Of a DNA stretch of 64,000 nucleotides, positions 106-7,641 are shown one piece after another. Location: contig NZ_RQXT01000040.1 of assembly GCF_003863365.1 (NCBI RefSeq), positions 1-64,000 on the forward strand. The letters are read 5' to 3'. Within the stretch, counting starts at the first letter, position 1; each line of letters begins with the position of its first letter. The notes below the pieces were generated by a model, which worked only from the letters and a program-made list of their open reading frames with translations, was not told where the DNA came from and ran no database searches. Both the position numbers and the translations under genes were made by a program. The DNA comes from Mesorhizobium tamadayense (GTDB lineage: Bacteria; Pseudomonadota; Alphaproteobacteria; Rhizobiales; Rhizobiaceae).

Positions 106-139
106 GAACCGTGCGTGAACCTCTCAGCTCACACGGCTC
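106..139 (-). ncRNA. Group II intron domain V
   Basis: On the minus strand this reads GAGCCGTGTGAGCT, a short loop, then the pairing arm GCACGGTTC. This is the conserved catalytic hairpin of bacterial group II introns. It lies just downstream of the maturase stop, the normal position. Confidence 0.75.
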
Positions 140-1390
140 CCGGTATCCGGCCATTGGGCATGTAGAAGCGGCCAGTGCGCGAAGAGCCCTGGCTTGGTCC
201 TGATGATACGGGCGAGCCACTCGCGCGCGCCTTTCGGCTTTTGCTTGAAGCGCTTGAACTTGCGGCGGGCCCATTTTCTCAGATGGAAGTCAATCCGGCG
301 CAGACTGTCGTACAGCGCCGATTTGTAGAAGTGACTGTAGTAGTTGATCCATCCACGGACGTAGGGATTGATCCGCCGGGCGAGATCCTCAAGGGCTGTG
401 TCGGTCCGGTTTTGGAGACCCCATTGCCGAACTTCCCGACGCATCGCCTTTAGCGCCCCTGGGGACGCCGCTGGCAAGAATGAGACGCCGTATGTCCCAT
501 TGGGCCATGCCGTAAACCGCGGCCGGAACGAGTAGCCGAGGAAGTCGAACTGGACCGTGGGATAGCGCTCGCTGCGGTTGGTGTCTGCGCAGTAGACGAT
601 TTTTGTCTTCTGCGGGTGGAGCGCCAACCCACACGTCGCGAACCGCTCCACTAGAGCGGCGCGCAAGGCTTCGGCCGCGGATTGGGTTCGGCAGTGGCAG
701 ATCACGTCATCCGCGTACCGCTCAAATGGAACAGCCGGATGGGTCCGTGTCATCCACAGGTCGAACGCGTAATGCAGGAACAGATTCGCCAGGATCGGAC
801 TCACGACCGATCCCTGCGGGGTTCCAGCCTCCCGTGGCTCGATGCAGCCATCTTCCCTTTGCACCGGCGCCATCAACCAGCGCTCCACATAGAGCAGTAC
901 CCAGCGGCAGTCGGTATGTGCCCGCACAGCCTTGAGGAGCAGATCGTGTGGAATCGTGTCGAAGAACGCCTTTATGTCGAGGTCGAGCACCCAGTCGTGT
1001 CGCCAGCAGCGCTGACGGGCCGTGCGCACGGCGTCGATCGCCGAGCGGCCGGGCCGGTAGCCGTAGGAGTCGACATGGAACAACGGGTACCAGTCGAGGC
1101 TCCAGATACCGTCGGACAACTTCTTGCGCGATGCGATCCGACACCGTTGGTATGCCCAACGGCCGCGTTCCGCCCGCCGCCTTCGGAATGTCCACCCGCC
1201 GCACCGGTTGGGGGAGATAGCTTCCCGAGGACAGCCGGTTCCAGAGCTTGTAGAGGTTGCCAGTTAGATCAACCTCAAAGTCAGCAATCGACTGTCCGTC
1301 TACTCCAGCCGCTCCTTGGTTGGCCTTCACCTTCTTGAAAGCCTCCCAGACTTCCCGCTTCGGGATGTCAAACGGCTTTGCCTTGGTCAT
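124..1390 (-). pseudogene. ltrA: Group II intron reverse transcriptase/maturase, frameshifted
   Basis: The reverse transcriptase/maturase would splice and mobilise the surrounding intron. The N-terminal frame starts at 1390 and carries RT0 (NQGAAGVDG) and RT1. The remainder, in another frame to 124, has GYRPGRSAIDAV, the DLDIKAFFDTI motif, TPQGSVVSPILANLFLHY, the catalytic YADD near 706-717 and a C-terminal maturase X region. The frames part near 1086, where one extra base separates codons for LEPRL from those for FHVDSYGYRPG. The full product would be about 420 residues, normal for En-minus maturases. As read the gene is inactive unless frameshifting rescues it or the base is a sequencing error. 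Confidence 0.85.
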
Positions 1391-6543: not shown

Positions 6544-6636
6544 TCAAAAAGTGAAGCCTGATGCCGGCACCGCTGCAGTCGCCGCCGAGAGCTTGTAGCG
6601 CTTTCGCAGCCTGGGCTTCTCGTAACGCTTCTTCAT
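6544..6636 (-). CDS. RiPP precursor-like peptide with lasso-type leader
   Basis: The 30-residue peptide has the leader signature recognised by lasso-peptide RRE domains at exact spacing: Tyr5, Pro8, Leu10 and Thr20 (Y-x2-P-x-L-x9-T), with the usual Gly at 14 replaced by Tyr. If Thr20 is the penultimate leader residue, cleavage after 21 gives a nine-residue core ending GFTF with no Asp or Glu, so a classical macrolactam lasso is impossible. AGGAACGG lies upstream of the ATG. No cyclase, protease or exporter gene is nearby. It lies 72 nt downstream of a putative regulator on the same strand. The class is assigned from the leader only. Confidence 0.6.
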   Translation of the reverse strand: MKKRYEKPRLRKRYKLSAATAAVPASGFTF

Positions 6637-6708
6637 CGTCCGTTCCTGTGTGGCCCAACGATCGGTCGAGGTGAGCGCGATCCGGCCGCGCTGTCAACCT
6701 CCACGCTC

Positions 6709-7641
6709 TTAGCCCGCGTGCTGCAGCCAATGGCGGTCGAACACGTCGAGGATGGCGCGGTACTCGGACGGCGGGATCTGGTTGACGCCGCCGTCGCTGT
6801 CGGCATTGAGGAACTGTCCGAGCTGGCTGTCGATCGCTTCCGGATGCTCCATGACGATGCCGAGGCTTGCAAGGTCGGCGGCGATCGAGGTGCCGGGCGG
6901 CAGGTACCCGCCCCATTGTTCGGCGGCGGGCGCATCGCGCAGACGCACCAACAGGATCCTGGTGAGCGAGGGCTGTGCCTCCGGGCCGATGATGGCGGTG
7001 CCGACCATATAGCCGCCGAGCACGCTCACCGGCTGCGTATGCGGAAACAGGCAAAGGAAGAACTGCGACTCGCCGCCCACCTCCTTCAGGTGCAGATAGA
7101 GGCTGCGCTTTGCCGGCGTGACCGGTCCGCCGAGCTGCAACTGCCCGGTCGGCAAGGTCTCGCGATATGTGGCGGTGAAGGCATGCGCGCCGGGCCCCGC
7201 CTCGATCGACAGGCGGCCCCTGATGAGCTGGCCGCGATAATAGGGCGACCAGGCGCGCGAATAGCAGGCATAGGTCCCGGCGAGCGCCAGTCCGATGCCC
7301 TTGTCGTCATGCCCGGGCGACGCCTCGGACTGCGCGTGGGCGCGGCGTTCGAGCTCCGCCGCTTCGATGCCGTGGCGGGCGGCGATCGCGGCCGCGAAGC
7401 TCGGCAGATCGCTCTCGGCGATCCAGGCGCCGGGCTGCTCGAGGCGCAGCACTTTCGCCCAATCGTCATAGACGCTGTGCTCGCGAGGCTGCGCGCGGCC
7501 TTGCAGCCATTTGTCGGCGCGGCCGACATCGAAAGCCGTCTTCGGGTTGACGGCACGGAACGCCGCCGCCAGGTCCTTGCGGCTGGCGGTTCCCAGCACG
7601 ACCGAAGTCAGTCGTAACTTCTGCGCGATGTTCAGTGCCAT
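6709..7641 (-). CDS. Hypothetical protein with HTH-like N-terminus
   Basis: The 310-residue soluble protein has no signal peptide. The N-terminal ~70 residues (QKLRLTSVVLGTASRKDLAAAF, then DKWLQGRAQPRE) resemble a divergent XRE-type helix-turn-helix. The remainder (about 110-300) is a mixed alpha/beta domain I do not recognise, with GTYACYSRAWSPYYRGQLIRG. The gene directly precedes the RiPP-like precursor on the same strand, with ATTCCA direct repeats about 160-185 nt upstream of its start. A regulatory role is inferred from these features only. Confidence 0.65.
   Translation of the reverse strand: MALNIAQKLRLTSVVLGTASRKDLAAAFRAVNPKTAFDVGRADKWLQGRAQPREHSVYDDWAKVLRLEQPGAWIAESDLPSFAAAIAARHGIEAAELERRAHAQSEASPGHDDKGIGLALAGTYACYSRAWSPYYRGQLIRGRLSIEAGPGAHAFTATYRETLPTGQLQLGGPVTPAKRSLYLHLKEVGGESQFFLCLFPHTQPVSVLGGYMVGTAIIGPEAQPSLTRILLVRLRDAPAAEQWGGYLPPGTSIAADLASLGIVMEHPEAIDSQLGQFLNADSDGGVNQIPPSEYRAILDVFDRHWLQHAG

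Follow-up and report, generated by a model that had tools for sequence, protein, structure and literature searches.

The stretch of DNA analysed here, hereafter the window, comprises 64,000 nucleotides from Mesorhizobium tamadayense, and at 6544-6636 on its minus strand lies a 30-residue open reading frame (ORF) with the translation MKKRYEKPRLRKRYKLSAATAAVPASGFTF, ended by a stop codon. This ORF is a real gene, one of eight copies scattered over the genome, and its features are collected in Table 1. As the original prediction had stated, Y5, P8, L10 and T20 occupy their places in the translation, and residues 22-30 (AVPASGFTF) form a nine-residue core with neither Asp nor Glu. The ORF therefore has the YxxPxL motif and the Thr at -2 of lasso leaders that work with a discrete RRE, and its core does not have the combination of Asp/Glu at core position 7-9 and a threading tail that a macrolactam would need. 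A profile-based name for the ORF was considered and dropped, since no NCBIfam profile matched and Pfam DUF5972 (PF19397) reached only 12 bits, below its gathering score of 22.6; the profile NF033521 lasso_leader_L3 was passed by two of nine relatives scanned.

Table 1. Coordinates of the precursor gene and its parts in the window
Feature	Position	Strand	Basis
Precursor peptide gene, 30 aa, ATG start, TGA stop	6544..6636	-	translation, paralogs, orthologs, pN/pS
Codons 1-21, lasso-type leader: Y5, P8, L10, L16, T20, A21	6574..6636	-	
Codons 22-30, putative core AVPASGFTF	6547..6573	-	presumed cut after A21
Ser26 codon, putative phosphate acceptor	6559..6561	-	Ser statistics of the core-blind set
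AGGAA, Shine-Dalgarno-like, -11 to -7	6643..6647	-	upstream sequence; family purine peak
TTGACA, -35-like box, 61 nt before start	6692..6697	-	between upstream gene's stop and ORF

Absence of the ORF from close relatives had been named in advance as grounds for abandoning the original prediction, and orthologs with the core [AT][VAT]P[SAP]SGF[TSA]F are in fact present in no fewer than eight relatives of the genus; the count is a minimum, as it covers just the stretches around the listed probe matches. Among nine orthologs (36 pairs), pN/pS is 0.33 for the leader, 0.25 for the core and 0.30 overall, as raw pairwise proportions with no tree. The gene upstream, at 6709-7641 on the minus strand, encodes a 310-aa protein with no Pfam or NCBIfam match; it adjoins the ortholog in six of the eight relatives' stretches and a LysR gene lies near the ortholog in six of eight, an absent neighbour being uninformative because these stretches span about 2.7-5.3 kb. 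Elsewhere in the window, 124-1390 (minus strand) holds reverse-transcriptase-like ORFs, by eye of group II intron type, that are split across two frames.

The upstream signals recur in the family. Across the 144 precursors described below, purines peak at -11 to -8 and TTGACA stands at -50 to -69 in 80; anywhere within -200 to -20 the box is found in 91 of them, compared with 4 for the reversed box and 9 for its reverse complement. A search with TTGAC places the box at the usual distance in only four of the eight copies in the genome itself. Orphan copies that have TTGACA look like separate transcription units.

The precursor family and its core serine

With the window peptide as probe, eight family members were found in its own genome (7.53 Mb, 303 contigs), after two further matches with E values of 2.1 and 2.5 had been discarded. 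These are the window gene on contig C239, one copy each on C78, C293 and C290, and four on C237. The search for additional precursors with this leader, which the original prediction had suggested, thus yields seven more in the same genome, and as the family is moreover genus-wide the ORF is not the single oddity it had been taken for. Common to all eight are K2, K3, Y5, K7, P8, L16 and T20; the start codon is ATG, but GTG in two. The core-blind leader DNA pattern RTGAARAARNNNTAYNNNAARCCN matches eight places in this genome, all of them family members, and its reversed form has no match in 37 genomes, so the family lies far beyond chance. The leader consensus is MKKxYEKPTLVRRGKLSAxTA.

Precursors were collected by their leader, with P8 fixed and residues 1-3, 5, 7 and 10 restricted. 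Of 149 candidates, five did not begin with ATG, GTG or TTG and were excluded, which left 144 precursors with cores mostly of 7-13 residues. Among these, Y5 is conserved in 144, L16 in 143 and A21 in 142, the invariance of P8 being uninformative because the collecting pattern fixes it. T20 is present in 109 of the 144, so that the lasso-leader spacing, although exact in the window ORF as had been claimed, is not diagnostic alone. Asp or Glu at core position 7-9 occurs in 17 of the 144.

The presence of Ser in all 144 cores is biased because the probe carried Ser at residue 26, and Ser at residue 25 or 26 in 117 of the 144 (against 39 +/- 5) comes from the same probe-biased set; for this reason the core-blind subset is relied on. 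Among 41 distinct peptides from the core-blind loci, a core Ser is present in 40, the exception coming from L286; pooling and redealing the residues would give 31.0 +/- 2.6. It occupies residue 26 in 28 of the 41, compared with 5.9 +/- 2.2 when each core is shuffled and a maximum of 14 in 2000 such shuffles. A wider set of 160 peptides, after exclusion of one with more than 60 aa, contains Ser in 151 cores, Thr only in eight (some sister genera) and neither in one; the L286 peptide, which looks degenerate, has neither residue in its core. Cores from sister genera are otherwise different and, by eye, retain S-G, G-[ST] or V-T.

Two core types stand apart. The core QIVASGVVLGE is nearly unchanged across species at L011 (7678-7776) and relatives (L130, L139, L162, L179, L192 and others), and unlike most cores it has pN 0.08 against pS 0.50 over its 15 pattern-matching members. 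Furthermore, 27 of the 144 cores contain Cys, and in a subset of precursors Cys stands around the Ser, as in CTPSTC and CPISQC (L182, L154, L165, L170 and others); these Cys-flanked cores could possibly form a disulfide or bind metal.

A cyclase-free cassette and its distribution

The original prediction held that no cyclase or protease gene lies near the ORF, and contig C239 has no RRE or B2. The same is true for RRE and B2 profile matches on C237, C293 and C290, which together with C239 hold the seven orphan copies; other enzymes beside these copies were judged by reading ORFs only. Genome-wide, Transglut_core3 (PF13471) has two matches, both on C78, and PqqD (PF05402) has four, on C78 and C178, so the RRE protein whose absence had been proposed as a ground for rejection is available in the genome. 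The C178 domains are at C178:26630-26806 and C178:55680-55874, the latter in a 423-aa open frame.

A candidate cassette lies at about 97.5-100.7 kb on C78, directly preceded by the eighth precursor, in the order precursor, PqqD-type RRE (PF05402, 44.8 bits, cut-off 23.4), lasso B2-type peptidase (NF033537, 71.5 bits, cut-off 33), HprK-like kinase and a convergent NTP_transf_5 gene (PF14907, 90.2 bits, cut-off 31.2). The kinase falls short of both curated cut-offs (Hpr_kinase_C 18.2 vs 33.3; HprK_rel_A 28.3 vs 200). Its predicted structure (pLDDT 93.2, pTM 0.89) matches, over residues 132-328, that of Coxiella HPr(Ser) kinase 3tqf_B (137 residues aligned, Z 13.5, rmsd 2.7). It also aligns with PEPCKs (279 residues, Z up to 16.1, rmsd 4.8), and these folds, as listed in the PDB comparison, may not be the sole ones that match. 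Residues His136, Lys159, Asp176 and Asp177 are invariant in 46 sequences and resemble the catalytic His-Lys-Asp-Asp motif reported for lasso kinases (PMC9266682, in excerpt). There is no asparagine-synthetase-like cyclase at the C78 cassette, no exporter was recognised among the cassette ORFs read, and archaeal-type SpI (TIGR02228 sigpep_I_arch) has no match at E<=0.001 in this genome, the same profile matching in 8 of 14 control genomes. The surroundings, by reading of ORFs, look polysaccharide-related.

Each of the 29 same-genus cassette stretches (28 relatives and the genome itself; 10.3-19 kb) contains the four genes together, and none of the 29 has a cyclase homolog at 1e-6, on which ground a lasso peptide with a hidden cyclase was rejected. 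Among 18 stretches from other genera the four genes were detected together in 15, the exceptions being L264 without NTP_transf_5, L276 without PqqD and L273 (G271) with B2 only; the B2 of L269 was counted from the homolog search, as the script's overlap filter had masked it. None of the 18 has a cyclase match at 1e-4. In the best 80 of 92 loci obtained with the kinase as query, 65 of them titled Mesorhizobium and others including Ancylobacter, Chelativorans, Roseovarius, Prosthecomicrobium and Hyphomicrobiaceae, B2 occurs in 80, PqqD in 79 and NTP_transf_5 in 79, and 77 have the four genes with no cyclase match at 1e-3. L377 lacks NTP_transf_5, L388 lacks PqqD, and L380 has a cyclase-like match of 25% identity about 1.5 kb from PqqD. 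These 80 loci are not an independent set because they come partly from the same genomes as the other sets.

Precursors and cassette occur together. The cassette B2 was found in 29 of 37 same-genus genomes, the own genome included, and the core-blind leader pattern in the same 29 and in none of the other eight (Fisher p 2.6e-8, phylogeny ignored), with 1 to 9 copies per genome and 147 altogether. Similarly, the protein probe at E<=1 gave 5-14 matches in each of the 29 cassette-bearing genomes, none in seven of the eight cassette-free ones and a single weak match (E 0.77) in the eighth, G006. Among 24 genomes from other families of the order, G043 has one probe match (E 0.09) without B2. A family-wide sample has B2_2 homologs in 24 of 394 genomes and 10 of 109 genera; of 37 genomes probed, all 19 with B2_2 gave a precursor match at E<=1, compared with 2 of 18 without, both of these weak (E 0.38 and 0.74). 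Four of the 19 match only at E 0.15-0.79, and their loci (L244, L247, L248, L249) do contain precursor-like peptides.

The position of the precursors differs between genera. A precursor adjoins the cassette by the strict pattern in 3 of 28 same-genus relatives and in the genome itself, and with a loose pattern one lies inside 9 of the 29 same-genus stretches; as only these nine contain one, the precursors of the genus are mostly remote. In other genera the loose pattern finds precursor-like peptides within the 14.5-kb stretch in 12 of 18 cases (13 if a probe match inside L271 is included), and tandem arrays occur, with ten such peptides in L267 and five each in L272 and L274.

Proposed maturation in trans and the alternatives

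The reading that we favour, at a probability of roughly two in three, is that the window ORF is a RiPP precursor matured in trans by the cyclase-free, lasso-derived RRE/B2/kinase/NTP_transf_5 cassette. As judged from sequence, the PqqD-type RRE would bind the Y5-x-x-P8-x-L10 leader, the kinase of HprK/PEPCK fold would phosphorylate the conserved core Ser (S26), and the B2 transglutaminase-like peptidase would cut after A21 to give a short linear phosphopeptide, the cleavage site being placed by analogy with lasso leaders that have T at -2. The NTP_transf_5 protein might then decorate the phosphate further, perhaps with a sugar. One cassette would serve all eight dispersed precursors of the genome, and with many precursors a single set of enzymes would yield a small collection of linear peptides. 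The suggestion of a trans-acting pathway with a chemistry other than macrolactam formation thereby gains support at the sequence level, given the seven further precursors and the candidate machinery on another contig. The view of the ORF as an orphan precursor holds in so far as it is a RiPP with a lasso-type leader, but the machinery can be recognised as related to the pathways of phosphorylated lasso peptides and of linear polyphosphorylated peptides (LPPs). Points against the favoured reading are the subthreshold Hpr_kinase_C and HprK_rel_A scores, the Thr-only cores (the LPP kinase accepted no Thr in place of Ser), the peptide L286, the locus L273, the genome G043 and the 35 of 144 members in which residue 20 is not T. 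To these come co-occurrence figures uncorrected for shared ancestry, the separation of cassette from lasso locus by one genome (G035, below), the usual TTGACA distance in only four of the eight own copies and the failure to recognise an exporter among the cassette ORFs.

It is unlikely, though worth weighing, that the leader serves only RRE binding and B2 trimming while the kinase and NTP_transf_5 act elsewhere, the products being unmodified linear peptides such as signals. RRE and B2 are the parts tied most directly to the leader, the kinase family scores are weak by sequence and some genera have Thr instead of Ser. However, with B2 as query, kinase and NTP_transf_5 are adjacent in 29 of 29 same-genus genomes, and the 18 other-genus stretches have the kinase in 17 and NTP_transf_5 in 16; moreover, the catalytic quartet of the kinase is invariant and 159 of 160 cores retain a Ser or Thr.

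The same contig, C78, also carries a canonical lasso locus (L021, 5250-12742) about 22 kb from the cassette, with genes for a precursor, PqqD, B2 (64 bits), a cyclase (NF033535, 753.3 bits, cut-off 525), an HprK-like kinase (37.2 bits, under the cut-off of 200), an ABC transporter and, by alignment and with no NCBIfam match, a putative NTP_transf_5 relative. Its precursor ends in ITQGGAGTTALDAAFPAHTPFDQLTFS, and if it is cut after T-Q the core has Asp at position 9. It seems quite improbable that the RRE, B2 and cyclase of this locus process the orphan precursors, whether into lasso peptides or into linear by-products, even though its precursor's leader likewise has YxxPxL and its cyclase is present in 30 of 37 same-genus genomes, namely the 29 with precursors and G035. 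The nine-residue window core without Asp or Glu argues against it, as does the resemblance of the window leader to that of the precursor adjoining the cyclase-free cassette, and 12 of 18 stretches from sister genera have precursor-like peptides near a cassette with no cyclase match at 1e-4. G035 in particular has the canonical lasso cyclase but neither the cassette B2 nor such precursors, which indicates, from a single genome, that precursor occurrence goes with the cyclase-free cassette rather than with the lasso locus.

That the orphan copies are unmatured, decaying remnants of a formerly clustered array is very improbable: their scattering, the degenerate look of the family copy L286 and an incomplete plasmid gene table listing a gene at one of the four best match places would suit it, but pN/pS is 0.30 for the whole ORF and 0.25 for its core, orthologs share neighbours, and the Shine-Dalgarno sequence and a TTGACA at the preferred distance are present.

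Beyond the favoured trans-maturation reading, we tentatively raise a broader proposal that may well prove to reach too far. The system could represent a new Alphaproteobacteria RiPP class in root-nodule symbionts, in which one cyclase-free, lasso-derived cassette acts in trans on dispersed and diversifying precursors that have promoters of their own (eight genes here). Each strain would thereby produce its own library of linear phospho- or phosphoglyco-peptides, which may have a link to the cell-surface polysaccharide whose genes lie close to the cassette.

Relation to known systems

The NCBI record 'putative RiPP precursor' WP_258589678.1 (Mesorhizobium, pMspAR02b) belongs to the family by sequence, matching a consensus-like probe at 92% identity across 26 residues, but it gives a name only, with no pathway, enzyme set or modification. 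Among the results listed from the open-licence PMC literature were the LPP paper and lasso reviews, and nothing on the present system in rhizobia.

The organisation proposed here resembles that of cyanobacterial prochlorosins, with one enzyme and many dispersed precursors. Most precursor genes are too distant from their enzymes for cluster-based genome mining to detect them, whereas the leader pattern combined with cassette co-occurrence finds them. If our reading is true, a single set of enzymes gives each strain of a nitrogen-fixing symbiont genus several short peptides that carry modifications. This would be combinatorial synthesis in nature, a counterpart of the Bacillota LPPs that is probably distinct from them, and a further example of lasso machinery lacking its cyclase. 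The system also offers a test of one RRE with many remote substrates, beside a second lasso RRE in the same cell.

The linear polyphosphorylated peptides (LPPs) of Bacillota are the closest comparison. In the excerpted account, LppK phosphorylates core Ser3, acting on Ser and not on Thr or Tyr substituted for it, an SpI-like peptidase removes the leader, and LPPs and paeninodins are said to be restricted to Bacillota (Popov et al. 2026, PMC13381572); a word search of its main text returned no Proteobacteria, Pseudomonadota, orphan or 'in trans'. As far as that source goes, both systems have a discrete RRE, a YxxP leader, an HprK-like kinase and an NTP transferase without a macrolactam cyclase, and in both a phosphorylating lasso locus is often present as well, in a setting of polysaccharide genes. 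The residue on which the kinase acts is near the core N-terminus, Ser3 in LPPs and presumably the core Ser here; the conservation of that Ser and of the kinase residues agrees with a putative phosphate chain on it. The combination of RRE, HprK-like kinase and NTP transferase without cyclase is found in the cassette and not beside the window ORF. The leader peptidase, however, is SpI-like in LPPs and of lasso B2 type in the cassette, and the LPP leader motif YxxPxVLxHQxIxFETxxS is not matched by the consensus given above. Moreover, LPP precursors of 35-200 aa lie inside the cluster, whereas those described here have about 26-45 aa (with a 60-aa collecting limit) and are mostly remote from the cassette, and the MsbA-like exporter of LPP clusters has no recognised counterpart beside it. 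Since the peptidase and leader-motif features fail and the phylum differs (Bacillota as against Alphaproteobacteria), the system is not filed as an LPP.

Phosphorylated lasso peptides such as paeninodin and pseudomycoidin share with the cassette the RRE, B2, an HprK-like kinase with His-Lys-Asp-Asp and the lasso-type leader, and pseudomycoidin also has an annotated nucleotidyltransferase, like the NTP_transf_5 of the cassette, PsmN being needed for the hexoses on its phosphorylated Ser (PMC9266682, in excerpt). Unlike them, the cassette has no cyclase, and the nine-residue core has no acidic ring residue and its Ser inside the core, not at the C-terminus. The system described here is a variant within the cyclase-free, kinase-bearing branch of lasso-type RiPPs.
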